Below, one piece after another: positions 8,347 to 62,600 of a stretch of 64,000 bases of DNA. Source of the DNA: Hirudinaria manillensis (taxonomy: Eukaryota > Annelida > Clitellata > Hirudinida > Hirudinidae); assembly GCA_034509925.1 (NCBI GenBank), contig CM067528.1, forward strand, positions 7,215,001 through 7,279,000. The letters are read 5' to 3'. Position 1 is the first letter of the stretch; every line of letters begins with the position of its first letter. Both the position numbers and the translations under genes were made by a program. A model generated the notes under the pieces. The model did no database searches. It was not told where the DNA came from and was given only the letters and a program-made list of their open reading frames with translations.

Positions 8347-11300
8347 TTAATATTCCTCTTCAGGATAATAGGCTGGTGGCAGAGGAGGCACGGTCTTTGG
8401 TTTCTGATTCTGCTCGTAGACATCGGGTTTACCCTTCGGTTGATAGGGTGGTTCGTAAGACTTGCTCTGTTGCTTCGGGAGATATTGTTTCTGAATTTCG
8501 ACGTCGTCTACAGTGGGAAGACGTTGCAGTAAAATACGAGCCTTCACCAAATACTGATCAGGGGCGAGGGATTTCATCTCAAAATATCGTTTGTAATCTC
8601 CAAAGAGGTTGAGCTCGTCGTAGCATGAACTGTACCACCAACCACCGAGATGGACCTGAAATAATTCAAAGGTTTAATTAATTTAGCTTATGATAAATAA
8701 ATTATTTAAATGCACTGCAAACGATAGTTTTTTACTTTTGCACAGTTGCTGTAAAAGCTTTGGTCGTTGTCTCTGTCGTAAGTTGAGAAAGGAGTGCCAT
8801 CACTCTGTAAGACGATTTGGTCGGTGTTGAAATGAATGCCATAATTACGACCTTCCGAGGCCACTACAAACTTTGGTGATTCCACATCGAGCTTCTTACC
8901 GGCTAAGTAGTAATTAAATTATTGAATGAATTACAATTACATGAAATTTGAAATAATACTTTGAATAATACGTTGAACTTGAAATCATTGTTAATTTATC
9001 AATATTTTAATGATAAGTTCACCTTTAGTAACGAGTTCTATGGCAGCATAATACTTTCCAGTTTTGGTTAAGCAATGCAGGTCTTCATTGCCTATGTAAT
9101 AATCTTTCGCAGGATTTCCAAAACCAACTTTGAATTCATTCCAGTTCTTGTTCATGTTGAATTCAGGGCTTTCACGGTTGAAAACGACAAAGAAATTGTT
9201 GACGCAGGAACCCTTAATAGAACCGCAACCAGAAACATTCAGAGAATATTCTTTTGCTGGTTCAAAAATATCTGGAACACATACAAATCTTATAATAACT
9301 TTGTACAATATTTTGAAGAATTATAATAAGTTGTTATTAAGAGCGCAGGTACCACAAGATCCAAAACTGGGTATGTGGGATTGAATCAATCAATCAATCA
9401 ATCAGTTAATTAATTAACGATACTCACGCCTTGGTTTGGCACAGAACTTAAACTCCACTGGTTCTCCCTCGCAATATTCGATGATATTTTTTCCGTAGAC
9501 AACACTATTTTCCAGAAGGCACTGTCTGTTTCTCTGATGGAAAGGTTTGACGCCACAAATCTCCGTGCAATCGGACCAAACGGTCCATGCCGACCAGTTG
9601 TCTGCGTCGAAATTGTAGCGTTAAGAGCATTTAAAATAATTTTTAATAATTAATTTCATATTATAATTATCACAATCATTTACAACTAAATCTTAAAATC
9701 TTTAAATTGATTGTTGTATAGTCTCTTCACCATTTCCACGTCCTTAGAACCAAAACACCATCAACAATGAAAACATTGAAACGAAGCTATTGTTAACAAT
9801 TTCAATAAATACATAAATAAATAAGTAAATAAATAACCATCTCATGAAATTATTAAATCCTCGACTTGAATCTAACCGCAGTTGGTTTCGAAGCAGAACT
9901 TGACTTCAGATGCCGATCCAGAACATGGGTTTCCTCCGTACGATGCCTCGGGTTTGTTGCAGACTCTCGATCTGGTCGTACTTCCTCCATATCCACACGT
10001 CTTACTGCAGGCAGACCAAGTGGACCAATCTGCCCATCCCCCGTCCACCGCTAAACACAAAGAAATATTCAAAGTCGCGTTCGGCTTTTTTTTATTAATT
10101 TGCAGAAATCACATTATTTATGGCATTATTTTCTAGAAAAAAATTATATCATTATAGTATTTTTAATTATTATAATTTTAGTTCTAAGTTCCTCCTGAAT
10201 TATGAAACGATATTTATTATTTTTGAGGTTGGCACTAACCACATGGTGATGCGCTGCAATTTTTGGCTTCAGTGAAGGGTCCAATGCAATTCTTGCCAAA
10301 ATACTGAGGAGCAGGATTGTTACACTTTCTGTTTCTTGTACTAATGCCGTCTTCACCGCACGTGACGCTACATGTCGACCATTCTGACCAGTTGTTCCAG
10401 TTACCATCGACATCTAGTAAATCAAGTGATTTAATTAATGGATGCCAAGGTATAGTAAAGAAATGCAACTAATTTAAAAAATTAGGTAATTTTAATATCG
10501 AAAAAAAAATAAAAGAAATCTAATATCTTCATCGAAACATATCGCAATGAAAGAGACTTACCACATGCTCTCAGATTACAAGTTTTGCTTTCTGTGTCGT
10601 CACCTTCGCAAGGTCTGCCTCCGTGCGCAGTCACAGGACTCTGGCAGGTTCTCTTCCTGGTCGAAGTTCCCTCAGCGCAAGTGGCACTGCATTGAGACCA
10701 CTGACCCCAGCTTGTCCATCCACCATCGACGGCTGTTTCGCATCGACAAATGTTAGATTAATGTTTTAGGAGGAATAAATCTCCATTTGTGATAATATGT
10801 TAAGAACTTAGAATTAATTTCATACGCAGAAATGGTTAAGAACTAACGGCAGGGTTTGACATAGCATGATTTGGACTGAGAATCCTCCCCTCTGCACATG
10901 GCTCCACCATGGATAGGTTTTGGTTCATTGCACAGACGAGTTCTGGAAGATGTTCCTCCAGATCCACAAGTAATGCTACACTTTGACCATTCACACCACT
11001 GGCCCCAGTTTCCATCGACAGCTGAGTTGGACAACAAAAGTTGGAAATAAAATATTTTAAGAATTAACGTCATTTACATCTTAAAATTATAATAAACCAC
11101 TGCTTTATAACTGCAAAATTTTGTTTTGTTATTCTCGAAATATCTCTTGATGACCCAAAAATAAAAAAAAAAAATCTAAAATAAATCCTGTCTCCTCATG
11201 CACAATAAAACTCACGACATGGTTTAAGTTTGACAGCCTTAATTTCTGTATCCTCCCCTTTGCAATTCTTTCCGCTGTAAGCAGGTGCAGGGTTGTCGCA

Positions 11301-14300
11301 TTTCCTTGACCTCGAAACCACGCTTGGTCCGCAACTGGAAGATGGTTGACCCCAGTTGGACCAGCTGCTCCAACCCCCATCGACGGCTTAGTTGACATTA
11401 TCAATTAACTCGTTGTTGTAATTAATTATTTAATTCATGTTTTATCAATTAGTAAACATTTAAATACTCAAATACATTAAAGTCGTTGAATAGATTTAGA
11501 TTTGAGTTTTGTGAACAATGATTTCAAAGACTCACGAGCAGTAGGCAGTTGTACTTTCTTTGTCTCAACGCTGTCCCCTAAACATGGCTTGCCTAAGAAC
11601 TGGGGCTGTGGCCTGTCACAAAGTCTTGTCCTTTGGACATATGTTTCCCCATAAAGAACTGTTGGCCAGGACCAGACTGACCAATCGCTCCATCCTCCGT
11701 CGATGGCTTTAAATTAATTACAAATTTGTAGATTCAAGATTAATGTCTTACTGAATTCAGCTAATTCAGCTTGTTCTATTAATATAACTAATTGCAAAAA
11801 GTTAACAATTTAATTACTTTATTAAATATTTTATTAAACTTTTTATTAAAATACTTGAAACTAACCAATATCGACTAAAATCACAAAATTTAAACTTAAC
11901 AAAGTATTAGAATATATAACATAAAAGTGCTTATTTTCATAAATCCTTACGGCATGGAATTGAATAGCATTCCTCGGATTCAGACTTCTTTCCGAGACAT
12001 TCTTTTCCACCATTTGAAGGACTGGGACTGTCACAAGTGCGACTCCTGGAGACAGTTCCCCCAAATCCACAGCTGAGGCTGCACGTCGACCATCTTTCCC
12101 ACTGACCCCAACCTCCATCAATGGCTGAATGACAATAAAAACCAATCTATGTCATGCATTGTTTATCATAGGGACGACTTATTAAAAATGAAAGTGAAAA
12201 TTGAATTAACACTACCGAAATGATGGTGACATATTCAAGTATAAGTTAATTAATCCAGCAAAAGAAAACAAACAACAATAGGATGTTCAATGAATCATTT
12301 TTTGCCAAAATATCTTCAAATTACCGCAAGGAGGCGCCAATCCAGGCGCATATTCGGTCGCATGTCCCTGACAATTTCTTCCTCCGAAGTTTGGCGACGG
12401 TTGAGTGCAAGTTCTTGTCCTGGAAACAACTCCTCCTTCTCCACAAGTTACACTGCATCTCGACCAAGAAGCCCATTCAGTCCAGCCCCCATCGATGCCT
12501 GATGTTATTAAGTGTTGTATCATTATTAGTGACGAGATGCTGTATCTTTCATTCATCCTTTCATTCATCTTTCAGTCGAGTAAATCAAATTGCAATAGTG
12601 TACAACTAGGCTAACATCTGAGACTGTAAGTGTTAAGTAAGGTTTGTTATATTAACCAAGGAATTCATAAAAATAAGTTAATATAAAATTATCTCTAACC
12701 GCAGGGAGGTCCAGAGCAAGTTTTGGTGTCAGTGGTTCCCCCATCGCAGGCTTTTCCGTCGTATTGTGGTTCAGGATTGGCACAGCATCTGCTCCTCGTG
12801 GCCACTCCACCGTCTCCACACTTCACGCTACACGTCGACCATTCGTTCCATTCGGTCCATGCACCGTTGATTGCTGGAAAAAGGAGGAGAGACTACTTGA
12901 GTAACTTTACTTGATAACAATTTTAATTTCAGTGGAATAAAAATATTATCTAAATTTATTTATTTATTTCATAACGACCGCTCAACCTTCTATCTGCACA
13001 GTCAGTTAACGAAAACAGAAAAAAAATAAGTTTGTGTTACAAAAATAAATAAATAAATGAGTAAATTAGTTAGTTTATAAAAAAAATTCATGCAACTCAC
13101 GACACATGTGCAAGAGAAGATTCTTTGTACTCGACGATTCCCCTTCGCATTCATTTCCACCGCCAGAGGGAGCAGGATTGTCGCAGTTCCTTGTCCTGCT
13201 TACTTGGGCGTCAGGACCACAAGAGGCAGAGGGCTCAGACCATGAGGACCATTTGCCCCAATTTCCATCGACGGCTATTAATGTATTGCGGTTGTCAGTG
13301 ATGTCGGTGGTGATGATTTGAACCTTAAAATTTGGCTTTGTTTCAATCACTTTGGTTTGTACTTCATTCATAAAAATATCGAGTATTCTTTAGAATACAA
13401 TTAGTGATGAATTGTCATTTATAATGATCGTTCTTCAGAATGGAATCGATAATGAAGTCCAGATAATTATAATTACTTAATTGCTTTTTTTTATAACTGC
13501 GACTTAAATGAAATAACAAATCCAATATCGTGTGAGACCAAAGGTTTATGGTGACAACTCACGGCATGGAGGAGCAGCACAAGCTTGAACTTCAGAGGAT
13601 TTTCCATGGCAATAAGATCCCTCAAAGGACGGTGGAGGGTTGTCACAGGCTCTCCTCCTGTAGTGGACACCATTTCCGCAACTGACGCTGCAAGTCGAGT
13701 ATTCTGACCATTCACCCCAAGCTCCATTGGTTGCTGTGGAGTATCAAGACTTTTGTTCAATATTTGAAGTTTATGAATGTAGTGAATTTTAATTGATTTA
13801 AATTACTGAAGAATGTGGTCTTACTATTACTGAATTACTTGTTACTAATGAATTATGATAATTATGAGCCATTAACTGTTATAATATTAATTGATATAAT
13901 ATATATATATATATATCTGCCTATAATTTTCCATTACATTAAACTTTATTATAATTTAAAATCATTTTATAATATCATATTGTTGTCCAAATAATCCTGA
14001 CAAAAATTGAAACTTCTGCTCCAGCGTTTGAATTACTGTTGTGTGCAAGAAGCACAACTAACGACACGGAGGCACAGCAGCACTTCTGATATCCGTGTCA
14101 GGTCCGGCACAGGGGTGGCCAAAGTAGGCAGGCGCAGGCTGGGTGCAAGTTCTCGATCTTGAACTTGTAGAAGCAGTCCCACATGAATGAGATGGGGTTG
14201 ACCATTCAGACCACGATGTCCATCCTCCATTTACGGCTAAGAGAAGATGGGGAAAATCTTTTCAAATCTTTGCTTTTTAATATTTTTATAAGTAAGCCTA

Positions 14301-17300
14301 ATATCTGATTTTGATCTTATTAAATGTTTTAAATAGAATTTGTATCAAAGGATGTTAATGCAAGATACTGACGTCGTAAGTAACGCATTAATGCTAATGT
14401 AGTATTCAATAAAGCAACGGAATAACTTACGACACGGTCGAACTGTGATGTTCTTGTAACTGACAGCAGGTCCTTTGCAGAACTTTCCTCCATACGACGG
14501 CGCGGGGTTGTTGCACGTCCTCGACCTACTTGGGTACAGCCCATCACCGCAGGTTGTCGATGGCTTGGCCCATCCACCCCAGTTACCCCAGGTACCATCC
14601 ACGGCTGATGAAAGAAAAGATTGCAATTTAAATTATTAAGATGCCAATAATTAAACTAATTATTACATTTGTGACGGATCTTTTAAAGGATGTTTGCAAA
14701 AGAGAATTCACTGACGACAAGGAGATCCTGTACAGCTTCTGGACTCGGCAGGTTCTCCTTCACAAGTCGATCCTCCGTGTTCGGGTGCTGGGCTGTCACA
14801 GAATCTTTTTCTGTTGACCAAACCACCTTGTCCACAACTGGCGCTGCAACTCGACCATTCTGACCAGGCACTCCATCCCCCGCATACCGCTGATGAAGAT
14901 TGGAAAAATGGTGTCGTGATATTGGTTTTCATTTAAAATCAATAATAACGAGTGAAGAAATGTTGTTGAGGCAACAATTCGTTTAGAATCATTTAATTTA
15001 GTTTTGAAACGCGACTCGAAATTCAGAAATTATAAAAATGATTTTAAAAAATAATTAAAAACAAATTTCAAAACTTACGGCATGGAACTCCCGAACAGTC
15101 TTTGCTCTGAGAGGCTTCACCCTCGCAAGCATCGCCGCCATTGGCTGGAGCAGGATTGTCACATGACCTCAGTCTCGAGGTCACCCCGTTGAGTCCACAG
15201 GTCACACTGCATTCCGACCATTCGCTCCAAACAGACCACCCTCCACAGATTGCTGATTGGTTGTGCCAAAGTAATAAAGCAATATTTATAGTAATATTTA
15301 TTCAATATTAACTAAATAATAATTTCCATTTCTTGTATAGGGATCTATGCAATTTAATTTCACCATTTTATTTTGTTTTATACAATTTATTTCTAAGCAC
15401 TTTAAGCTAAAACGTTCGTATTAAATATCCTCACGACATTGAGGGAGTTGTTCCAATCTGGTTTCAAAATTCTTTCCCTTGCAATTGGCTCCCCCAAAAT
15501 CAGGTTTTGGATTTGAACATTCTCTCGACCTCAATGACAAACCACCCTTTTCACTGCATGAAGCCGCTGGTTTCGACCATTCGCTCCAAGCTGTCCATCC
15601 CCCATTGATGGCTGAAAAAGAGATCGCGAAAGGCAAATGCATATGTTGTAAAAGCTAGCACATTTTATCGTCATCATCATCATCATTATTATTATTATTA
15701 CTATTACTATTATCATTCATAATTTCCGTGTAAACATTTAATAATTGGCTTAGAAAATATAACGCTAGGCTGTTACGACGCGCAAGTGACAAACCGATGG
15801 GAAAATTAGAAATATGAACAATTTTACTTAAATTCGAACCACAAGCTGGCAACTCGACTTCGGCATGTTCGACGGCGTCTCCATCGCAACCTTTGCCTCC
15901 ATAGAGAGGGGACGGACTGTCACAATCTCTCCCCCTTGATTTCGTTCCCCCAAAACCGCAAGTGGCATTTCCGAACGACCATACCGACCATGCACCCCAA
16001 TTTCCATCGACGGCTTTAAATTACAATAAAATATAATTCAGTTACAATTGTATAACAGTAATCTCCAATTGGTATTAGCAAAATATCGAAGTTTAAGTGT
16101 ATTGCCGTTGCAATTAAATAATAATGTGATTAAATTTCTTAATAAAAACGTGAAATGTTTAAAAGGAAAAAGAAAACTTACGACAGAAGCTCAAGAAACA
16201 CGATCTCTTGTTGCCCGAAGCTCCTTCGCAAGGCCTTCCCTCAAAAACAGGCGTTGGGTGATTGCATTTCCTTCTCTGTACTTGAGTGCCTCCGAATCCA
16301 CACGAGGCACTGCATGTCGACCATTCGAACCACTTACTCCATCCACCGTCGACAGCTATCGTAATTATTTGGGGTTTAGAAGTTATTCAATTATTGTATT
16401 TGGAGCACATCTGTAATTGGAGAAGTTAAATTAATTGGTAATAAAATTAAATATAAATGTGATAAAATGTGAAGCATTTCACAAGTGACGGAGTGTTTAT
16501 ATGCGATGGAGATGTAAAATTTCGCGGGGAGAGAGATATATTGTTGGACTTAATCAAATAATATAAAAATACGAAATACTGCAACCCGGCTAGGGTTAGG
16601 ATTAGTGGTTAGAGTTAGGGTTAGGATCAAGGTCAAAGTGGGGATTGCAACAAGAGACGAAAGTTATTCAACTAACGGCAGGGCTTTGCTTTGACGACTT
16701 GCACTTCCACTGGATCACCGATGCAGTTCTTTCCATCGTATTGAGGTGCCGGACTGTCGCAGGCCCTCGACCGCGTCTGAAATCCTTCCTCGCCGCAGGA
16801 AGCAGTGTTCTTTGACCAATCACCCCAGGCTCCCCAACATCCATCGATGGCTTTCGTAATTAAGATTAACATTTAAATAATATTTCAATTTCATATTCAA
16901 CTTAAGGGATCAAAGTGTAGTATTTAACTAGCGTTAAATTGACTTTTAAAAATGCTTAAATTTTTCATTTTAAATGCACGAAATCCAATTCAAAATCAGG
17001 TGAAATAAATAACTGTCGAAAATCGGTTTGTTTGATTAATCGTTTTTTTAAATATTTTTCATCATTTATGGTGCATTTCAAATAATTTTTATTTTGCACT
17101 TCAATTTTAACTTTTTTTTTTTGGAAGACAATTCATATATTTAGAGTTTAAATCCACTCACGACATGGTGACAGAACGCTTGGTTTTGACTGAACATCCT
17201 TGCCCTGGCATGGTTCTCCCCCGTCGGAGGGTGGGGGATTATCACACCTTCTCGTCCTTCTGACCTGACCCTCAGATCCGCAAGTCTTTTCGGGGGCTGA

Positions 17301-20141
17301 CCATTCCGACCACCTACTCCACTTGCCGTCAACGGCTTTAGATTTTAAATTGATTTTAAACTAGTCGGAAAAAAATTATATTTACTCCTCGACAAATGCT
17401 AAGCACTAATTTATAATTCATATATATTTTTAATTTAAATTTCAAAATACCGTTTTTTTTTTCTGAGACAACTTTCGTTGAGATTCTATTTTGAAAAAAA
17501 TATGAAGCAGCTAACGGCACGGTCCTTCGCAGCACCCTCTGGTCTCAAGAGCGGCCCCGTAACAAGGACGACCTCCAAATTCATTAGGGGGATTGGAACA
17601 GTTTCTTCCTCTCGTTTGCACCCCTCCGAACCCGCAGCTGACACTGCATCTGCACCATTCCGTCCACGAGTTCCAGTTGCCAGCAACAGCTATAAAGTGT
17701 TGGTTTGGTTCATTGTTGGAAGAATTGAAACTTTTAGTCGACTTTGTTTTAAATAATTAAAAATTCGAAGGTAAAGGACGTCATCATTTTTTATGCATAT
17801 GTTTAAATTGCCTTTACTTTGGTTAACGTTTGTAATGTCGTATTTAATATTTACATTTAAAACTCATATTATATTTGTTCGTTTGTGAATTGTGAAGTGA
17901 ATTGAATGTCAGTTTTTGTTAATACGTACGACAAGGTCTGGGATGACTGCAGAGGTTGGTCTGTTGGTAAACTCCTTGGCACAACTTTCCACCGTTGGCG
18001 GGCGAGGGTTTGCTGCATTCCCTGGTCCTGCTCTGAAGTCCCCCATCCCCACAAGTTGCGCTGCAAAGGGACCACAAGCCCCACTTTGACCAACCGCCAT
18101 TGACAGCTGTTGAAGAAAATTCATTTTAATTTTTATATTTGGCTTTCTAAGCCAGAGTATTTATTGCACTTCAAAAGTGACAGATTGAGATTGTTTTCGA
18201 CTCACGGCATGGAACTCCAGTACAAGAATCAATCTGAACAGAGTCACCATCGCATTCCGAAAGCGGAGCATAAGTTTCGCTCGGGTAAAGGCCTCCTTCT
18301 GTTTCGCGTACGGGATCTCCTGAGATGAAAGTGTCGCCTCGGTATTCAGTTCCACGGTGTTCTTCGAACAGGTACTCGTTGGAACTGAGAACATGAGAAC
18401 AAATGAAGTGGAACCAACAGTTTGAAATGAGTAATATTATAACGCTGTTGGTATTTTAGAAACGCACCCTCCTTTTTTAGCTGGAGGCTCTGGATACAAG
18501 CTTCTGGCATATCTGCATCAAACATTTGAAACGTAATAGTTCCAGATGATAAATTAAAATATTATAATTATTAATATGAGGTCAAAATCATCGACGTGCA
18601 GGTAAGGGATTAATTAAAAAAAAAGAAATTACGAATCCAATTATACAACGTGGAACTATGTTGTTTACTAGGAACTGGAAGACATTTCAAATATTATACA
18701 TCAGGGCCGCCTGGAAGAAGATGAAATTGGACTACATAAGAAAATTGTTTTTGTCTATGAATAACAGATGTTTCGATATAATAGAAAAACAAGGAAATAT
18801 AATTTTATGTTGAATCATCTTTGGTGTCCAAAAAATAAATTTCAGACTTTATTATTGACTTTCATCGCCGAATTCCAATAAATTTTGGGCGCCCCAAAAA
18901 AGTGTTTTCGTTATTTCTTAATTAGTGTGAAATTAATACTCAATGAAATTTTATAAATAAATTTATAAACACTATTTATATAAACATAACATTCTAAAAT
19001 TTGAGTAATTGTTTAATATAACATGAGTTATCATAAAAAATCACTTTTTCCTATATATATTGGGCGGACTGTAATAGTGAAATTTCAACCTTCCTGGTCT
19101 AGATTCTTCAACTCCATTGCTGGGACCTGGTAAACAGGTTCTTGTTCTCTTTTTGATTCCAGTGCCACAAGTGACAGAACAATCAGCCCATTTGGACCAT
19201 GTAGTCCAGGAAAATTTGGCCTTTGTAACCTGGAAGGGCAGTAAAGATGGTTGCAAATGAACTGAAGGAAATTGTTACACTTGAAACCGAAAGCTCTCAC
19301 CGCAGGGTAAGTGGTGGGAAGGTGTTTGTAAGTCGGTGGTGTTTCGTAGCTTTTGGGGGTTGGATAGGTTTTGCCAACGTCTTTTTCAGGGTAGTGCGGT
19401 TTTCCAGTAGTTTTCGCAGTAGTTGCTGGATATTTTGGTGGTTCTGGGTAAGCAGGAGGAGAAGGGTGCTTTGGTTCTTCTGGGTAATCATCTTCATCTT
19501 CATTTTCAGGATACGAGGGAAGAGGAACATACTTGGTAGTAGGAGCTGGATAATCCTTCTTATCAGGGTATTTTGGCGGTTCAGGATATTTGGGTGGTTC
19601 AGGGTATTTGGGTGGTTCAGGGTATTTGGGTGGTTCAGGGTACTTGGGTGGTGCAGGATATTTGGGCGGTTCAGGGTTTTTGGGAGGTTCGGGGTAATCT
19701 GGTTCTTCATAATCATAATCGTAGTCATCTATCACAAAATGTATTTGTTAAATAATTATAATTGTGAGATAATTAATATATTTCGTAAATCTACCCTGCG
19801 GTACTGCCAGTGTCAGGGCACCTAAAAAGTGTCAATATATTATTTAATATGTTTGTATACCTAAATAATAATTAATTAATCAAATGCAAGTTCTGGATAA
19901 AATTTTATCAGAATGACCATAATTTAATTGAAAAAAGTAATGAAAAGGCAAATTACTTAGCATAGCCACGAAAATGAGCCTCATGGTTTTTGGATCTTAA
20001 AATAAATTAAATTAAAATGAATATAATTAGAATTAATTTATTATTAAAAATTAGACATTTAACTATCTAAACGTTGTCCAATCAGTTACCTACTATCAAC
20101 AAATAATTTATAATGTTTATATGTTAAGCAGACTCACCCAT
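8347..20141 (-). CDS. Secreted multi-TSP1 protein with PPKYPE repeats and C-terminal fibrinogen-related domain
   Basis: Thirty-three coding exons join in phase to about 1860 aa. Exon 1 (20141-20138) supplies ATGG, joined to 19995-19957; a second ATG in frame at 19984 would give 1855 aa. Exons 19995-19957 and 19821-19795 encode a signal peptide (MRLIFVAML, ALTLAVPQ). Exon 19728-19301 (to residue 166) is acidic then Pro/Lys/Tyr-rich. Then come 24 TSP1 repeats (about 167-1619), a fibrinogen-related domain (about 1620-1790) and a Pro/Gln-rich tail ending in PEEEY. TSP1 and fibrinogen-related domains act extracellularly in protein and glycan binding, adhesion and immunity; this combination suggests a matrix, adhesive or lectin-like protein (inference). 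No transmembrane segment was seen. Domain calls are firm, orthology is not. Confidence 0.87.
8520..9271 (-). other. Fibrinogen-related (FReD) domain exons
   Basis: Exons 9271-9023, 8902-8736 and the start of 8655-8347 carry the FReD core: FKVGFGNPAKDYYIGNEDLH, then GIHFNTDQIVLQSDGTPFST, then YDRDNDQSFYSNCAK (the acidic calcium-site region) and GGWWYSSCYDELNLFGDY. The N-terminal subdomain is shortened and diverged; the usual GGWTVIQRR-type segment is not evident. FReDs in invertebrates are mostly secreted lectins or immune recognition proteins. Ligand specificity cannot be read from the sequence. Confidence 0.85.
9428..19229 (-). other. Array of 24 TSP1 repeats, mostly one exon each, phase 1-1
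   Basis: Repeat 1 is split over 19229-19090, 18512-18468 and 18384-18206, with a long insert. Repeats 2-24 each occupy one 171-177-bp exon: 18106-17930, 17689-17516, 17335-17162, 16850-16677, 16355-16182, 16013-15840, 15611-15435, 15252-15079, 14889-14716, 14604-14431, 14236-14063, 13733-13563, 13274-13101, 12873-12700, 12498-12325, 12124-11951, 11706-11536, 11386-11216, 11021-10848, 10732-10562, 10413-10240, 10050-9877 and 9601-9428. A typical unit starts PVDGGW, has a WxxWS motif (C-mannosylation type), CSxxCG, SRxRxC, PxPxxGG and ends PC. Symmetric phase-1 exons of near-constant length show growth by tandem exon duplication. Repeat 24 is the most divergent. Confidence 0.9.
16590..16625. 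repeat. Degenerate interstitial telomere-like TTAGGG repeats
   Basis: Several TTAGGG-like units with interruptions lie in the intron between TSP1 repeats 5 and 6. GGGTTAGG also occurs near 50409 and 57571. Too short and diverged to mark a chromosome end. Confidence 0.5.
19301..19728 (-). other. Pro/Lys/Tyr-rich region with PPKYPE hexapeptide repeats
   Basis: This exon encodes an acidic start (DDYDYDYEEPDYP), about seven tandem hexapeptides of the PPKYPE/PPKYPA type, and then looser Pro/Tyr/Lys/Thr sequence (PATTAKTTGKPHYPEK). At DNA level it is an 18-bp minisatellite at roughly 19565-19690. Such extended PKY-rich stretches resemble structural or adhesive extracellular proteins and could form polyproline helices; no orthology to adhesive proteins is claimed. 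Confidence 0.8.
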
Positions 20142-29479: not shown

Positions 29480-32400
29480 TTACAATCTCAAGCACACGCA
29501 CACACACACACACACACACACAACAGCACACGATCGTGAACGAACTTTTGAGCTGCAGTTGTTGTTGATGTAGTTGAAACCGGAAAGAGAAGAACCTTGG
29601 CACGATGTCATGTGACCAGAGCACGTGATTGGGAAGAAGGAAGTGGGACTCAACTGCCGAAGACCAGAAGTTGAAGACGGCGGTCTGTCTATGGGTGATG
29701 CCCTCAATGGTTTGAATGACTTGAGTTGATTTTCGTCCGGCAGAGACTTTTGGGTGCTGTAGAGGCTGGTCGTCTGAGTTGAAAAGACTGGAAGGTTGTA
29801 GAAGTCTCTTTCGTTCAAGTAGCTCATCTCGTCAAAATCGCTCGGTACAAAAGGCTTGTGAAGAGAACAGTTGTCTCTGAACTGGAACATTAAATAAAAT
29901 AATGACTGCCTAAAAAATACCAATTTCAAAAAGCTATTAAAAGCTATAAATAAAATTTAAGAGCTATCATACATTCAACCTATTGAATACCTACCGGGCA
30001 AGCGCCTCTAGGGTCTGCTGTATGGCAGGACAAGTCATCGTCGACGTTGAAAGAGACGAATCTGTTGTTGAACTTATTCAACGAACTGGCTGCGTCCGAA
30101 TTCTGTTCTGAATCCTTGAAAGTCGAGCATGCGTTCAAGTCAGGAGTCATGTAGGCCCCTTTATTCAGACTACCATTAGAAGCAGCTTTGACGGTTTCCA
30201 AGCGACAGTTGTATCTTCGAGGACGTCGCCTGCGTTTCGAGAGGTGACAGCGGATGACGAAGACGGTGATGCAGAAAATGATGAGGAAAGCTGAACAGGC
30301 GATGAGGATTGCAATTAAGATGCTGTGGTCCAAAATCGTTGCAGCCAATGAAGATTGGTCGGATAGTATGGCATCGTGCTTGGTGACTTGAACCACGAGC
30401 ATAGACGTGGCCTGATCGTGATTGTTATGAGGGTTGTAGGCCGACACGTTGAGTATCAACTGCCCTGCCGAGTTGAGGACCGATGTGGTTTTTATCCAAC
30501 CTGTGCTTTCGTCTATGGTCAGTAGACCTTCTTCGTTGCCCGATAAAATTGAGAATCTGTAAAGATTTTTGCTGCCCGATCTCATCAGTTTCCTTGCTCT
30601 TTCGATACTGCTATTTGTCAGTTGGAGCTGGCAGACAGTAGTTCCATTGTCACTTCCTACCGTCAAAACGACCGAATTGTTGGTGTCGTTTGGAAAGTGG
30701 AAAGTAGGTGTCACTACAGGAGGTTTCAATGATTCTTCGACAACAAGTCTAACTACGACGTCTACTCTCGATTTCGGAAACCAATTCCCGGACGGATTAC
30801 CGGGGAGAACAGAAAACCTTACACTTCTAGATTTATCCAGTTGAACTCTGGAGCGTATTTCGCCCGAGTTCTTGTCCACATAGAGCAGATGTTCGACGTT
30901 TTCTCTAAACGTGTCCTCGAGCCTGTAAATGACCTTGCCAAATCTCGTAGAACAATCTTCGTCGATGGCTCTCACTTGACCTAAGAGAAAGTTCTCGGGG
31001 ATCTTGGAATGTATCAAGAACTCGTAGGAGGTTCTATCGAATATGGGAATGTGTTCGTCCTTGTCCCTGACTGTCACTTCGAGTCCTGCCTCTCCAATCA
31101 GACTCGGTGTTCCAGAGTCCAAAGCGCGTGCCATGAACATCATTTGGGAGTTCTCTTCGCAGTTGATGTTGTTCAATGCGATTACATCACCATTCTCATC
31201 TACTCGCAAAATATCCTTCCATTTGGCTTGTTGAGGTTCGAGGCTGTAACTGAGTTTCGAGTTTAATCCCTCGTCTGCATCGTTTGCCTTGGAAATTAAA
31301 ACAGAATGGTTTTAATATTTTATTTTAATAAGATTGCTTCCAGCAACAAATCTCTCAAATGGGCCACTTACTTTGATTTGAAATATTTTGGTTCCTATGG
31401 GAGTATTTTCGTCGACTTCCATTCTGTAAACATTTTTCTCAAAGACTGGAGCGTTATCGTTCTCGTCGAGAACTCTCAATTTGACCATTTTGCTGGTTCT
31501 CAACTGAGGCTTCCCATCGTCAGAGCAAGTGATTACGATGTCGAATTGACTGCTATTTTCCCTGTCGAGTGAAACTCCAGTGCGCAGATCGTATTCTATA
31601 CTCGAAGTAGTAACGGGGTTGGATCTTTTGGGGGAGGAAGGAAAAAGAAAGAATATGGGTGGGTGGACTGTGCATGTTACTCTCCCGTTATTTCCTTGGT
31701 CCTTGTCGGATACCAACATCTTAGCGAATAGCGTCTCTTGTGGTAAGTTCTCGGATATCTGAAATGAATGATCGAATTTCGGTATCGCAAATAAACTATT
31801 ATCACCTGAAATCCGTTTGAAAGAAAGTTATGTACAATTCATCAAATCCAAAAAAATCATTGCAACTCCAAACGGATCAAATTATCAAACCTCTAGGATG
31901 TCGGTGATTTGTCCATTCGTGGATCTGAGAACAATTGAAGGTGGATTGTCGTTGACATCTCTGACGTTTACTGTGAGGAGAGCGTGAGAAGACAGAGACA
32001 GAACCGCTCCAAAGTCCGAGGCGATGGCAGTCAAGTGAAATGTTGGTTGTTCCTCGCGGTCCAAATTGGATTTCAATTTCACCGAACCCGAGGTTGGATC
32101 GATGGAGAAGAGACTTCCGTAGCTTAAATTGGAGATTGAAAACTTTTCAATGCTGATATTTTAATGTAATGAATGTAATGTAATTTATTTAAATGTATAT
32201 TTGGAAGTAAGTTAAAGTCTTAAACATTTCGCAATTCATCTAACATCCTTACGGGCACTTTCATTCTTTTCGGAAATTAAGAAACATTGCTCAGAAAAAA
32301 TTTTTAATTTAAAAAAAGTCTTAGTCAGTTAAATCCCAGTTTGTTATTTCAAAATAATCAATTAATTGATTGATTCCTAATTATTAATTAAACTATTTCT

Positions 32401-34796
32401 ACCTCCTCGATGTCTCATCACTCCAAGCATACTTGACCCTGGCATTTTCACCCTGGTCAGCATCTGAAGCCCTGAGCACCACCAATTCATTCCCCACATT
32501 GAAATCTTCGTTGACATCGACAGAATAATAAGGCCTTTCGAACTGAGGGGAGTTGTCGTTATGGTCGAGAACTTGAACTTTGACCTGAAGAGTCGATGAC
32601 CTGCTGGGTGTGCCCCCGTCTTCTGCCAAGATTGTTAGGCTGTATTCCTGAGAAGTAGTTGTGCTTTCTAGAAATTTCTTGTTTTTGTTCACTCCAATGT
32701 TTTGGTGACATAGCGAATTAATTAATATACTGGTCATCGTAGTTGAAATATAATAGAATTAAGTAACGTTTTAATGATTTCAAATTCGAAATCTTTCAAT
32801 AATTTAGCAGGTAATGTAAATGTATGCTCTCCCGTATGCCATTAATATACATTTACGTAACGCATTACTTTACATAATTTATTTAATTGTCTTTAATGTC
32901 AATAATATTATCGTCAAGACAACAAATATTGATCCGCAAAAGAATCAAAACACTTAAACAACAATCCAAAAATATCTTACATCTTCAGTCTCTCTGTCCA
33001 GCCTATCATTGAGCGTGAGGGACAACACGTGGGTGACGTCATCGATGACGTGTTTGGCAAGAGAAAATTTGGCCATCGCCTCTGGTGACGTCTTGGAAGA
33101 CAGGAATGAGTAAGTGATGTTACCATTGGTCCCCTGATCAAGGTCTTCGGCGTTCGGAAGTCTGTGACCTTTTGAACCGGGGTTAAAAGTTTCTGGAATA
33201 CTGATGACGAACGGTTGTGCGAGATTCGGCGGAAATTCCGGGGTGTGGTCGTTAATGTCGCTGATGATGATACTGATCCTAGTCAGGAGCTTGTAATTGG
33301 GGGAATCGGTCATGACGTCATAAAGCATTAGGCATACGTCCTGCATTAAATAAAGTTCCGTTTAAATTAAGTTACCTATTAAACAGAGCTCTGAAATAGG
33401 TTGTTTTTACTAGTAATTAGCAAAATAATGATTTTAATTAGTTTAAACAGACGCAAGTGATGTTTAACAATTTAATTGTTAAGGAACGGAGGGAAGGAGA
33501 CATGATTTTTGTCTGGCATATTTTATGTCTATTTTTGACTCAACTTCTAATTTAGGATGTTGTTCGTCTCTTGTTCAAGCAGAGTCAGTGCTACTTAAGA
33601 ACATACGTTTACGAGAGAAAAATGCCTCCATCTGTTGTCATTTATATTTCTTGTTTTTGTGACTAAAATATTCAAAATAAATTCATCTTCAATGCTGCCT
33701 CTCTTTATTATTAAGTTATTATTATTTATTAAATCTAATGACACTGAATGTAAACGATCTGCTTGCTTGCACTTCCCTCAAACAAGATTATAGTTGAGCA
33801 ACTGTTTTTCAAAAATGGCTTAAGAGTTCCGAAACGGATATTACGATTTTAATTTATTTATAGTAATTATAGCTTGGCTATCATTTTCGTAATAAAAAAA
33901 AATTAAACATTTAAAAATTCTGAGTGAAATCCTCAAAAGCACAAATCTTTGAACACTCCCAGCGAATAAAATGAATTAAATTCAACAAGAGAAGCAAAAG
34001 CCGACGATTATTTTGGAGTTTATAAAAACATTTACTACTGACTTGCTCAAACTTAAAATGGTTTTGTCTCTTGAAGTCATTCAAAAATAACTTGAAACGA
34101 AGCCTTTTGAAACTCTTTCATTTCAGCAGATGAGATTTGAAATGTGATTGTTTTTGTTTTTGTGTTTTGTTTTTAGCTTTATTATTAAATTGTTTCAAGT
34201 GAAAATGTAACTCAGATAATCATCTGTCGTCCTTGTTCCAAAACTACGCTACAATTGCTCAAAATTCGTAGCAATCGGTCAAGTGCTGTCCACTTTTGAT
34301 ACTGGCTATATATAGTAATAATGTCAAAAATCGAGTCATTGTTTGTTTACAATTTAATTTTAAGAATACGTCACCATCCTAACGCAACAATAACAACCTA
34401 ATTATTAATAAGTTGTCCCCCTTTTAAATCTAGTTTTAAGTTAAATAAACATTAGAAATTATTAACAACTTAATTATGAACATAATTTCACTCGGCCATT
34501 CGATCTGTAGATCGAAATGTAGCATAAAGAGGTTGTTATCAACAAACCTGATAAGGACATAGTTCTTCCTTGTCGATGCTTGAATTTGTCACGATCAGAG
34601 ATGGTTTCATCTCACTGAACTTAAAAAGTCCATCACGTGGCTCCAAGTGATAAGCTGATCTTTGGTTACGACCGTCGATTATGAAACCGACGCTGGTGCC
34701 TAATGGTACCTCTTCGTTGATTGAAAATGTTAGAGAGGAGCAAAGTGGGATTTGAACCATCAGAGTGAGGACCAAAAGCAAATAATGGGGTGGCAT
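29480..34796 (-). CDS. Protocadherin-type cell adhesion protein
   Basis: Exons 34796-34548, 33340-32981, 32677-32403, 32122-31891, 31758-31372, 31287-29995 and 29881-29480 join in phase to 1065 aa. A signal peptide (MPPHYLLLVLTLMVQIPLCS) precedes about six or seven extracellular cadherin repeats with calcium motifs DINDHTPEF, DHNDNSPQFERPYY, DVNDNPPS and DENDNAPVFEKNVY, plus DADQGENA and LDRE motifs. A single membrane span (ILIAILIACSAFLIIFCITV, about residues 818-842) is followed by a basic stop-transfer KRRRRPRR and a cytoplasmic tail of about 220 aa lacking the beta-catenin site of classical cadherins. Calcium-dependent adhesion at the plasma membrane is the family role. The acceptor at 32677 has a poor pyrimidine tract. 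The read-through C-terminus ends in CVCVCVCVCLRL encoded by a CA microsatellite; see 28984-29073 for the alternative end. Confidence 0.88.
29493..29522. repeat. CA microsatellite in protocadherin coding sequence
   Basis: A CA run of about 12 units, in frame on the minus strand as alternating Cys-Val at the end of exon 29881-29480. Length changes other than multiples of three units would change the reading frame. Confidence 0.85.
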
Positions 34797-42655: not shown

Positions 42656-45600
42656 ATGGTGAGATTATTTTATGCATACATGCTTGTTTTTTGCCGACAT
42701 TGGGCATTAGTGCCAACTTTACGGCATCCATTTTCAGGGCGTTTGCCATGCAGGATAGGGTTCCCAATAAACATTCTATTAAATGCTGCTATATTTTAGG
42801 TCAACTTCACCATAGACGAGATCCGTGGCATCATGGACAAAAAGAAGAACATCAGGAACATGTCCGTGATTGCCCACGTAGATCATGGAAAGTCAACTTT
42901 GACGGATTCTCTGGTTAGCAAGGCAGGCATCATCGCCAACGCCAAGGCAGGTGAAATGAGATTCACCGACACCAGGAAAGACGAACAAGAAAGGTGTATC
43001 ACCATCAAGTCCACTGCCATTTCCTTATACTACTCCCTTCCAGAGAAGGATCTTCAACATATAACCCAGCCACGTGAAGAAGGATGCGGTTCCTTCTTGA
43101 TCAATCTCATTGATTCACCGGGCCACGTTGACTTTTCTTCTGAAGTCACTGCTGCCCTCAGGGTCACTGATGGTGCTCTTGTCGTCGTCGACTGTGTTTC
43201 AGGTATTGTATTTTTTTCGGTAGCTTCCACATCCTCTATGTTGTTCTAATTCTATATATTCGTCCGCAGGTGTCTGTGTTCAAACCGAAACTGTCTTGAG
43301 GCAGGCAATTGCTGAGAGGATTAAGCCTGTCCTTTTCATGAATAAAATGGATCTGGCTTTGCTTACCCTCCAGCTCGCTCCAGAAGATCTGTATCAGACT
43401 TTCCAGAGAACCGTTGAAAACGTGAACGTCATCATTGCAACCTACGGTGAAGATGGCGGACCCATGGGTGATGTCATGGTTGACCCTTCGAAGGGAACTG
43501 TTGGTTTCGGATCGGGTCTTCACGGATGGGCTTTTACTCTCAAACAGTTTGCCGAAATTTACTCTGAAAAGTTTGGAATCGAGACTCAAAAGTTGATGAA
43601 GCGACTCTGGGGCGATCAGTTTTACAATCCCAAGCAGAAGAAGTGGGATAAGGAGTGCAAACCTGGATATGTTAGAGGTTTTACTCAGTACGTCCTGGAT
43701 CCTATCTACAAGGTCTTTGAGTTTTGCATGAGGAGGCCCAAGGAAGAAGCTTTGGGACTCTGCGAAAAGCTTGGCATTAAGTTGACAACAGAAGAAAAGG
43801 AAAGCCAGGAGAAGCAACTGATGAAGACTATTATGAAGAAATGGCTTCCCGCAGGTGATGCCCTGCTTCAGATGATCACCATCCATCTGCCTTCTCCAGT
43901 CACTGCACAAAAGTATAGGATGGAACTTTTGTATGAAGGGCCTCACGATGATGAAGCCGCTCTTGGTAAGCCGTAGTAAAAGATGTCTTTTTCATTGTGC
44001 TATTAATGATAATAAATATAACAATCCTTTTTAGCCATCAAGAACTGCGATTCAAAAGGCCCCCTGATGATGTACATATCGAAGATGGTACCGACATCAG
44101 ACAAGGGTAGATTCTATGCCTTCGGTCGTGTCTTTGCTGGTGTTGTTGTCACTGGTATGAAAGCAAGGATCATGGGACCAAATTATGTCCATGGAAAGAA
44201 GGAAGATCTTTACATTAAGAGCATCCAGAGAACAATTCTCATGATGGGAAGATACACTGAGCCAATTGAGGATGTTCCCTGTGGTAACGTTTGTGGTCTA
44301 GTCGGAGTTGATCAGTTCTTGGTTAAAACCGGGACCATCACAACTTTCGAAAATGCCCACAACCTTCGAGTCATGAAGTTCAGTGTTAGCCCGGTTGTCA
44401 GAGTTGCTGTCGAGTGCAAGAACCCTGCCGATTTACCAAAATTGGTTGAAGGACTTAAACGTCTTTCCAAATCTGATCCACTTGTACAGGTTAGTGTCTC
44501 ATAAAGTTTTAAGGCTTATGTTATTATTTAATGATCAATAATTTAATAATTTAACAGATAAGCATCGAAGAATCTGGTGAACACATCATTGCCGGCGCTG
44601 GAGAGCTCCACCTTGAGATCTGTCTCAAAGATTTAGAAGAAGATCACGCTTGTGTTCCAATTAAAGTATCTGATCCAGTCGTGTCATATAGAGAAACAGT
44701 TAGTGAAGAGTCTGATAGGATGTGCCTATCCAAATCTCCGAACAAGCACAACAGGTTGTATATGAAGGCGCGACCCATGCCCGACGGTCTGGCTGAAGAC
44801 ATCGACAATGGCAAGGTCACTCCGAGACAGGAAATGAAGGAGAGGGCTAGGTATTTGTCCGAAACATACGATTATGACGTGACAGAGGCTCGTAAGATCT
44901 GGTGCTTCGGACCAGAAACAACAGGGCCAAACATCGTCGTCGATTGCTCCAAGGGAGTGCAGTATCTTAACGAGATCAAGGACAGCGTTGTTGCTGGTTT
45001 TCAATGGGCATCGAAAGAGGTTTCTTTTTATTTGTTTTTTTTTGTTTGTAATCTTAAACGCTAGAACTAATTTCGAATTTCGATCAATAGGGAGTTCTTT
45101 GCGATGAGCACATGAGGGGAATCCGTTTCGACATTCACGATGTGAATCTCCACGCTGATGCCATCCATCGTGGTGGAGGTCAAATCATCCCAACAGCCAG
45201 GAGATGTGTCTATGCTTCGGTTCTCACTGCTGCACCGCGCCTTTTGGAGCCCGTTTACCTTGTTGAAATCCAATCTCCGGAAGCTGTCGTTGGTGGAATT
45301 TATGGCGTGTTGAACAAGAGACGTGGTCACGTGGTTGAGGAGAGTCGCATTGTTGGCACTCCTATGTTTGCTGTCAAGGCTTACTTGCCAGTCAATGAGT
45401 CGTTTGGTAAGCCACAATTTACTTTGGTATATGATTATTGGTAATTGTTACTTATAAAAACAAAATGATCATCTTTAAAGGTTTCACCGCTGATCTGCGT
45501 TCACACACTGGTGGTCAGGCTTTCCCGCAGTGCGTGTTTGATCACTGGCAGATTCTCAGCGGAGATCCTACTGAGAATGGAACTAAGCCGTTCCAGATCG

Positions 45601-59618: not shown

Positions 59619-62600
59619 TTTCAAAACTTTTATTCAGCCCAGATTACGTCCGCAAAACCATCACGCAAATCGGAGAACCTCATCGATGTTTTTAGAGTCC
59701 TCAGACGGGCCCGGGAAAACCCATGGACTGTTAACAGTAGCCTAAATATAATATTATAAATTAGATAAAGTACAATCAAATAAATATTCTTCTCGGCCTT
59801 CTTCTTTTCCTTGCTTTCCAAGCGTTTGCTCTGAATGTTCTCCATATTCTATGGGTTTCTATCAGAGTCTTAATTGATGTCCACGTTAGGAACCGCTTAG
59901 ATATGCCAAGCTTCTTCCACGAGGTCCAAGTTTCCATGGCGATTGCTCCTCTCCAATTGATTATGTAGGCTGTGGCAATCGCCTCCATTTTGCCCTTGCC
60001 CTGATTTGGGCTCTTTGCCTTCATCCAGCGATGAATGTCCGTGGTGTTATATTTGTCTATCTTGCTTTGGTGGACTCTATCTAGGTCCACGTTATCGGAC
60101 ACCACGGCCACGTCACAAATTATGTAACGTTCATCGCTCCAGGCACAAAGATCGGGGATTCTGGTCCCGCTGACGGTTGGAATACGAGGCTCTCTTGTTG
60201 TTGAGTACCCCATCTGTGTCAAGACCGTCTCAAGCATCTTCGCTATACAGTCGTGCCTTGCATGGCGGGGCCCGTCGGTACTCGGACACTTTTGGATAAT
60301 GTGGGCGAGAGATTCCATTTCCCCACATCTGGCTGCGCAGGCTGTGTTGAACAGGGGTGTTTTTCTGGAAGCCCGCAATCTATTGAAAAGTGTTGCTGAG
60401 CGGACTTTGACACAGCTTATGTATTGGGTGGATGACATTCTGTTGATGCCATCCACCAGCCATTCACTTGGGGCTATTGCTTCCGGGAATCTCATCAGCC
60501 CGTGTCCGTCGACCGTTTTATAAAGTTCCCTCGCGGTTGATAGTCCACGAGGAACGTTCGGGTCATCTTTTTCCTTTGGCCTCCCAAATCTTTTGACTTC
60601 GCTGGCGATCATTGTGTTTTCGCGCAATGCATCCATCAGGATGTTGCTCTCTTTGGCCTGCTGTAGAACTTTTGTCATTCTACGTATTCTAATTTCCGGA
60701 ATCCATCGACGCAGTTGAAGGATTCCCATTCCTCCCGTTCTGATCGGGGCATGAAAGAATGCATTTGGGGTGTCTCTTGGCAGCCGGAGCCATTTTCGAA
60801 CAGACCTCCTTATTGCGACATCAGCAGAATTCAAGGACTTGAGGCTGATCGCTTCGAAGGTGAGGAAGTGAACGAGACTAGGGAGAAGATGAGTCCTTAG
60901 GACATACACTCTCTGGCATGGCACGAGCGGAGCCCGCGAAATCGAGTGAAGGCCTTTTTGAATTTTGTCTGCAAGCGAAGCAAATTGCATTCGAGGTCCG
61001 ATTCGAACTCCTAAATACTTATAGGTGTCAACTATGGAGAGTGCCCTGATATCCTTATCTTGCAGTGTCAGGTATGGCTCTGGGTTGACGATCCATTGTC
61101 TTTTACGAGTGATGACCTCAGTTCTCATTGAGGCACACTTGGATGCGTTCATGATGAGTCCAACTTTGGCCATCGACACCTCCAGTTGTCGCAACATCAC
61201 TTTCATTCCAACGTCTGTGCTGGACAGTAAAAGAAGGTCGTCTGCAAAGGCGATGTAGTTGCATTTTTCGGAGGATTTGCCTCCTCCCGTAACCCCAATT
61301 GATCTGTCAATGTCACTGACAACCATGTCAATGACAGCGTTGAACAACATCGGGGACATGGGGTCGCCCTGCCTAACTCCCCTGCCGACCTGTATGGATC
61401 TGCTGAGCTCTTTTCCCATCCTGATGTGGACCTGACAATTACTGTACATTTCTGACAGATATCTTGTTAACAGGGGTGGTGCGCCGAATCGTGAGGCTGC
61501 CCTGATGATCGATTCGTGGGAAACGGAATCGAACGCCTTAGACACGTCTACAAATGTCATGTTGAGCTTTTTTCTGTCTTGTCTACTTTGGGCGACAAGA
61601 GCCTTTACAAGCCAGATGTTGTCGGCCAAACCGTCGCCTGATTGGAACGCCTTCTGTCTCGATGATAGTGGCCAATATACGGACATGCGTTTATTCATCA
61701 CTCGATGGAAGAGGCGACTCATGAGCGGACTCACAGTGATTGGTCTGAATTCACTTGGATCGGCTGTTCCTCTCACCTTTGGAATAAAGCTGACGACGCC
61801 AACTTTGAAGGGAGATGGTGGCAGGCCCGTCAATAACCAGAGGGACATGTGCACAGCAAAGTCGATTGGTTTGATGTTTTCCAAGTGTTTCCTTTTCACT
61901 CCATCCAGACCGGGAGCACTGTCTTTAAGACCTCGCAGAGCCATTTTTACTTCAGTGCAGCTGACGGGAGCCTCCAAATCATGACAAATACCGCAAACTG
62001 AAACCACCGATCTATCGTCTGTAATTGACTTTTGAGAAAAAATTGGTTCCCAAAACTGGAGCAGTTGTTCGTGTGGTATGGGTTTAACTTCCTCGTTATA
62101 TTCTTCATTCAAAACCGAACGAGCTCCTGAAGATCTATTCTTCCTGAATAACCCTTGGACCTTTGCTCGTTTCATCTTTCTGTCTTCCCTTCTTATCTCC
62201 TTCTTGGATGGTCGGATCTTCGTTGTCCGAAATGGTCTGGTCAGATTTCCCGCTTGACTTTGGTCAGATGCAGCATAGGAAGTAGTCTCGACCTTCGGAG
62301 GCCGCTTTTCATATCTGTCAGCTCCCTTCTTTCCACTGTGCACTTTCAAACCCTCCATCCATTGTATGTATTCCTTGTCTATCAAACGGCGCTTTGAGTC
62401 CATGTCATCAACTTGATTTCTCAACAGTTCGGAAAGTTCCTCGCATGGCAGACTTATGTATTTGTAATTTGCGAGTATAAATTGCTGCAGTTGAATGAAG
62501 CTATTCACTTCCGCTTCGACTGGAGATGCCGTGAGTGTGGGAATCGCAGTACATTTCGTAGGCTTGCCAGAGCAAGTTGTCTTTTCAATGATGTAGTTAT

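Follow-up and report, generated by a model that had tools for sequence, protein, structure and literature searches.

Joint absence of cysteines C1 and C5 marks position-conserved repeats in a TSP1 array of Hirudinaria manillensis

The window, a 64,000-nucleotide stretch of the Hirudinaria manillensis genome (GenBank assembly GCA_034509925.1, contig CM067528.1, positions 7,215,001 to 7,279,000), carries on its minus strand, from about position 19984 down to about 8350, a gene for a large, animal-type protein that is predicted to be secreted. The protein begins with a putative signal peptide and a Pro/Tyr-rich segment, continues with 24 TSP1 repeats and ends in a fibrinogen-like domain. Splice signals suggest that a first coding exon contributes the ATG and the start of the signal peptide (19957..19984) and that a second contributes its remainder (19795..19821); joined to the Pro/Tyr-rich exon (19302..19728), these putative exons read MRLIFVAMLSALTLAVPQ-DDYDYDYEEP.... 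The PPKYP repeats of the Pro/Tyr-rich exon are reminiscent of adhesive proteins. The fibrinogen-like domain (8350..9320) spans three open frames, 9320-8994, 8918-8709 and 8673-8350; the first matches Pfam Fibrinogen_C over the cut-off (E 2.1e-10), the second matches it below the cut-off (E 0.0021), and the third has no Pfam match. Elsewhere in the window lie a minus-strand gene that by eye is protocadherin-like (29980-33361), with a Cadherin domain match in frame 29983-31209; plus-strand frames that by eye resemble elongation factor 2 (42800-45444); and a minus-strand retroelement (59776-63363), seen as a 1195 aa open frame with a reverse transcriptase domain (RVT_1). Spliced genes mark the stretch as eukaryotic, and its TSP1, fibrinogen-like and cadherin domains would fit an animal.

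The initial annotation had placed 24 TSP1 repeats at 9428..19229, and the minus-strand exon structure agrees, with the first repeat (R1) starting at 19229 and the last (R24) ending at 9428. R1 is split over two exons, one encoding C1, C2 and C3 of the six cysteines that we number C1 to C6 (19090..19229, 3' end approximate) and the other encoding C4, C5 and C6 (18206..18384, both boundaries approximate). Each of R2-R24 occupies a single exon of phase 1-1, and all 23 of these exons have an AG acceptor and a GT donor. The donor of R7 is weak (GTTCGA) and its 3' end uncertain. In seven of the 23 repeat exons (window 9877-17689), GTTAG donors are found in place of GTAAG or GTGAG. R1, in which all six cysteines can be recognized by eye, was excluded from the cysteine counts.

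Repeats of class I retain C1 and C5, and those of class II lack both. All six cysteines are present in 12/23 of R2-R24, namely R2 (17930..18106), R3 (17516..17689), R6 (16182..16355), R9 (15079..15252), R10 (14716..14889), R13 (13563..13733), R15 (12700..12873), R17 (11951..12124), R20 (10848..11021), R21 (10562..10732), R22 (10240..10413) and R23 (9877..10050). Two more repeats are each short of one cysteine: R16 (12325..12498) has C1 but Gly at the C5 site, and the divergent R24 (9428..9601) has C2 but has lost C6. Nine repeats had been named in the initial annotation as lacking both C1 and C5, and all nine do: R4 (17162..17335), R5 (16677..16850), R7 (15840..16013), R8 (15435..15611), R11 (14431..14604), R12 (14063..14236), R14 (13101..13274), R18 (11536..11706) and R19 (11216..11386). 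Tabulating the two sites over R2-R24, as had been proposed, upholds joint loss. Both cysteines are kept in 13 repeats and neither in nine, C1 is never lost alone, and the sole exception to the accompanying claim that nearly all other repeats keep both is R16, which has lost C5 alone. The joint state of the two sites is significant by Fisher's test (p 1.2e-5, n=23), a value that overstates the coupling because the test assumes independent repeats and these share descent.

When all 15 pairs of cysteine columns were tabulated, recurrent joint loss was found for C1-C5 only (nine repeats), every other pair being lost together in zero or one. C1 and C5 also go together in 32 full-length repeats from other genes of this genome in the same alignment, which have both cysteines in 24 cases, neither in eight and a mixed state in none. 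C2 and C6 are both kept in 21/23 of R2-R24; both are gone from R18 and C6 alone from R24. C3 and C4 are kept in 23/23, on which ground we rejected pairing via an N-terminal cysteine of the kind seen in group 2 TSP1 repeats (F-spondin type), where such a cysteine substitutes for C3. That the array interleaves a three-disulfide and a two-disulfide form, as had been suggested, stands insofar as the two forms alternate along it, but R18 is also without C2 and C6 and could therefore form one disulfide pair at most, hence the array has at least three states rather than two. The expected pairing, C1-C5, C2-C6 and C3-C4, has been reported for Sema5A TSR3 (PMC10978931), and by analogy with such relatives the repeats of this protein would share that bonding and fold.

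Comparison was by paralogues of the same genome, of which we searched 148.4 Mb in 23 contigs. Three further co-linear 24-repeat arrays were found, one on the contig of the window (L009) and two on contig C11 (L011 and L012), and these also carry a similar Pro/Tyr-rich exon and the same three fibrinogen-like pieces. L011 and L012 (C11:4940000-4962400) form a near-identical inverted pair a few kilobases apart, with a dS of about 0.02, and may stem either from an inverted duplication of recent date or from the assembly itself. We refer to the window array as A, to L009 as B, to L011 as C and to L012 as D; D, a near-copy of C, was excluded from the tallies and from the 101-row tree discussed below. 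Among A, B and C, amino-acid identity is 78-89%, dS is saturated (about 1.7 or more, or not computable) and dN is 0.065-0.149. At the nine class II positions, both C1 and C5 are absent in 27/27 repeats of the three arrays, and at the 13 class I positions both are present in 39/39. The class, which the initial annotation had proposed to follow by position in orthologues, is thus conserved by position in these paralogues. The residue at the C1 site of class II positions varies (P, N, S, G, T, A) and is never Cys. Because the pattern is common to A, B and C despite saturated dS, it is older than the duplication of the whole array, and the low dN between the arrays points to purifying selection. 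The dN of class II is about 1.5-1.65 times that of the class I set, in which R16 was included, an excess that would fit relaxed constraint or a special role.

Class II repeats have sequence traits in common beyond the missing cysteines. The C1 site is Pro in 14/17 class II repeats. At the C5 site, V, I, L or M is found in 12/17 class II repeats versus 0/37 class I repeats, and two residues further on, in 15/17 versus 14/37. The O-fucose sequon, C-x-x-S/T-C (PMC9198472), is present in 11/13 class I and 0/9 class II repeats of the window array, so that class II falls outside the sequon of POFUT2, and the Ser/Thr preceding C2 is retained in 16/17 class II repeats. O-fucose is described as protecting the C2-C6 disulfide (PMC9198472). 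The genome has five matches to the generic O-FucT family of O-fucosyltransferases, four of them over the cut-off. The C-mannose motif WxxWxxW occurs in 9/9 class II and 12/13 class I repeats of the window array.

All five repeats that were given to Pfam TSP_1 (PF00090, gathering cut-off 21.6 bits) pass, with scores of 37.6 bits for R4, 23.5 for R18, 33.8 for R19, 55.3 for R22 and 24.4 for a class II repeat of another locus, L025. AF2 models, from 29 rows each, have a mean pLDDT of 65 for class II, a weak model, versus 82 for class I. The class I model aligns to thrombospondin-1 TSRs with a TM of about 0.8. VIA-align 2 was applied to the class II model alone; the best structural matches of this weak model are TSRs, none of them at E <= 0.001.

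Six solitary cysteines, in R5, R9, R10, R16, R20 and R24 (window 16850-9428), recur in each of the arrays A, B and C. Those of R5, R9, R10 and R20 are one extra cysteine apiece, in all three arrays, N-terminal in the first three repeats and within WCEW in R20. The six are candidates for inter-repeat or inter-chain bonds. R24 of array C has one further cysteine. The unpaired states of R16 (C1 without C5) and R24 (C2 without C6) are identical in A, B and C, so that lone cysteines can evidently persist. R3 has two extra cysteines in all three arrays, two residues before C1 and one after C5 (window 17689-17516), and these may be a gained pair. R15 has an extra cysteine beside C3 in A and B that is absent in C.

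Searching the genome with a class II query led to additional arrays outside the window, at C3:11894000-11907000, C3:11927000-11931500 and C4:7598500-7606500 (L038-L041). Their repeats, which we term class III, are related to TSP1 by alignment. We tallied 62 of them (19, 18, 11 and 14 in L038, L039, L040 and L041, respectively), leaving out two halves of one repeat. As read from the alignment, C1, C2, C5 and C6 are gone and C3 and C4 are kept in 62/62, the state also found in R18, and the Trp motif and RxR are recognizable in most. Two cysteines are present in 54 of these repeats, three in six and four in two, and all eight with extras belong to L041. There, an extra cysteine at the start of some repeats is accompanied by another in the C4-C5 loop of the preceding repeat (3097 with 2862, 2273 with 2038). 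Such pairs could bond neighboring repeats to each other; the other extra cysteines of L041 do not fit this arrangement. None of the six class III repeats tested reached the TSP_1 gathering cut-off of 21.6 bits (best 19.3), and the four arrays are not among the 150 of 239 TSP_1 candidates scored in the Pfam genome search, an absence that may stem in part from that scope. A search with a single class III repeat gave R14 class II repeats as the nearest sequences outside the class III arrays, at 52-56% identity. Candidate donors could be proposed for 46/62 class III repeats, and many of the exons end 2-3 residues past the C5 site; C6 therefore seems to have been lost with a shorter exon end, unlike in R18, whose exon is of full length and has Ala at the C6 site. 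Longer and shorter repeat types alternate in L039. The loci that flank the class III arrays (L042-L045) contain, by eye, Trp-rich repeats that are shorter again and carry RKRxC...CRG. Exons resembling C-type lectins, adjoining the arrays, were likewise noted by eye in L042 (4882-4207) and L045 (4099-3539).

Across the 101-repeat alignment and the 62 repeats of class III, joint loss of C2 and C6 occurs only where C1 and C5 are also gone, C3 and C4 are never lost, and R24 is without C6 alone. Another 50 TSP1-like hits outside the alignment (L016-L022, L029-L037 and partial hits) were read by eye. One repeat of L027 seems to have C1 and C5 and to lack C2 and C6, contrary to the nesting; one of L037 has C1 and C6 without C2 and C5; and one of L024 has C1 without C2. 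Because of such exceptions, the nested order is a strong tendency of the tallied set and not a genome-wide law. Likewise, group-2-like repeats without C3 are seen by eye, for example in L019, L031 and L035, and the constancy of C3-C4 is therefore limited to the tallied repeats. An order in which the disulfides were lost in time would reach beyond what the tree supports. L016-L018 resemble copies of one locus.

The number of losses was approached with a tree of the 101 repeats, for which 54 columns of the alignment were used, the C1 and C5 columns were removed, R1 of each array and array D were excluded, and the rows of other genes were the full-length hits of L013, L014, L015 and L023-L027. 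The best tree is poorly resolved; on it the C1 state changes 10 times and the C5 state 11 times, but the starred branches, those with support, force only two state changes. A constraint that unites all 35 class II rows in one clade lowers the log-likelihood by 26.4 units, yet the AU test does not reject it (p 0.215), so that nine independent losses cannot be claimed. The coordinated loss described in the initial annotation is borne out as the joint absence of C1 and C5 but should not be read as nine separate events. A quick second tree that takes in class III rows (41 columns, 113 rows) has 3/110 inner branches starred; arrays B and C were excluded from it and the long-branch rows L015m2, L014p1, L024p2 and L024p3 dropped. 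In L025 (C2:8127000-8136900) the full-length aligned repeats are class II in 5/5, and in L027 (C4:7655000-7664900) in 3/3, with partial hits also present at both loci.

An alternative explanation, in which a single ancestral loss of C1 and C5 spread by exon duplication and has been kept solely because regain needs two simultaneous changes, with no role for individual positions, has in our estimation a little less than an even chance of being correct. It accommodates the unrejected class II clade, the mere two changes that supported branches force, the Pro and V/I/L/M residues that class II repeats share at the C1 and C5 sites, and their higher dN. It sits less easily with the 10-11 changes of the best tree and with the likelihood cost of uniting class II, and R18 (a residue swap in a full-length exon) and class III (short exon ends) apparently lost C2 and C6 in different ways, a hint that paired loss happened more than once. 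A different reading would make the missing disulfides a means of assembly. If R18, and perhaps class II, are without ties between strands A and C, strand C could swap between chains, and the solitary cysteines could lock the resulting dimers or higher assemblies. There is a precedent in Sema5A TSR4, reported to lack inter-strand disulfides and to dimerize by domain swapping, with a disulfide between the two molecules (PMC10978931); both A-C ties are missing in R18, and the six solitary cysteines are common to arrays A, B and C. Yet class II retains C2 and C6, which would join A to C, fewer disulfides may simply mean lower stability, and R24 of array C has one more cysteine; we regard this explanation as unlikely. 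Finally, the divergent R24 and the weak donor of R7 could hint at decaying pseudogene copies or an assembly artefact as the origin of class II, an idea that we judge refuted: none of the 23 single-exon repeats has an interrupted frame, each is bounded by AG and GT, and every position is kept in arrays A, B and C, with dS saturated and dN low.

We consider it likely that class II repeats are group-1-type TSP1 repeats minus C1-C5, whose paired loss was coupled, was fixed before the array duplicated and has been under purifying selection. By this account, class II would have lost the disulfide that links strand A to strand C, and in R18 and the class III arrays C2-C6, the other link between these strands, would be gone as well. 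Secreted domains usually suffer from an unpaired cysteine; once one partner goes the other would therefore tend to follow, and regaining the disulfide would require two concurrent changes. Proline now prevails at the C1 site, and aliphatic residues at the C5 site and again at +2; these residues probably pack at the former disulfide site, while a tryptophan-arginine ladder would keep the domain together. With its pattern set before the whole array was duplicated and held by purifying selection since, the protein would likely be rod-shaped, its three-disulfide modules, open to O-fucosylation, alternating with two-disulfide modules that have the C-mannose motif but no O-fucose sequon. A more general proposal is that one lineage graded its TSP1 repeats by paired removal of disulfides, mostly in nested fashion (C1-C5, then C2-C6, with C3-C4 retained), with mixed arrays placing the grades at fixed positions to tune local stiffness and glycosylation, and the giant class III arrays, which score under the Pfam cut-off, as a new subfamily whose modules may stretch or swap strands; in this extended form it is unlikely to hold.

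Thrombospondins proper have EGF, type 3 and C-terminal lectin-like modules, whereas the C-terminus encoded by the window gene is fibrinogen-like. The window repeats are like group 1 TSP1 repeats (thrombospondin-1 TSR2/3, properdin, UNC5) in their Trp motif, RxR, CxNPxPxxGGxxC and length of about 57 residues; relative to these, class I has all six cysteines, class II is without C1 and C5, and R18 and class III are without C1, C2, C5 and C6. That bonded cysteines tend to be lost in pairs is a general rule (PMC7456536). A TSP1 repeat without two of the six cysteines is known from TSR1 of C. elegans MIG-21 (PMC6954052); this is one repeat of one protein, whereas the window gene has nine such repeats among 24, at the same positions in its paralogues. 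The malaria CSP C-terminal domain is described as having two disulfides (PMC11053680). Semaphorin-5A TSR4 resembles R18 and class III in having no inter-strand disulfides, but it is domain-swapped and has extra disulfides of its own (PMC10978931). In the potato proteinase inhibitor II domains Pi7C and Pi6C, one or two bonding pairs of a repeated domain have been lost whole, leaving no free cysteine (PMC3073943); these belong to an unrelated plant inhibitor for which positive selection is reported, in contrast to the purifying selection on the window array. Macrostomum ap1 and ap2 are likewise very large secreted proteins, with TSP1 in ap2 and a C-type lectin domain in ap1 (PMC6410801, PMC8621496), but they also have vWD, C8 and TIL domains, and the likeness to the window gene need not mean kinship. 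Our literature searches, not aimed exactly at one-disulfide TSP1 arrays, found none described, which is no proof of absence; such arrays suggest that Pfam-based counts can overlook entire TSP1 arrays. The principle of paired loss is known from these systems. We have come across no earlier description of repeat classes mixed along one array at conserved positions, or of TSP1 forms with three, two and one disulfides within a single genome. With the first two forms conserved by position, this is a natural series for the roles of disulfides in TSP1 folding, O-fucosylation and stiffness.
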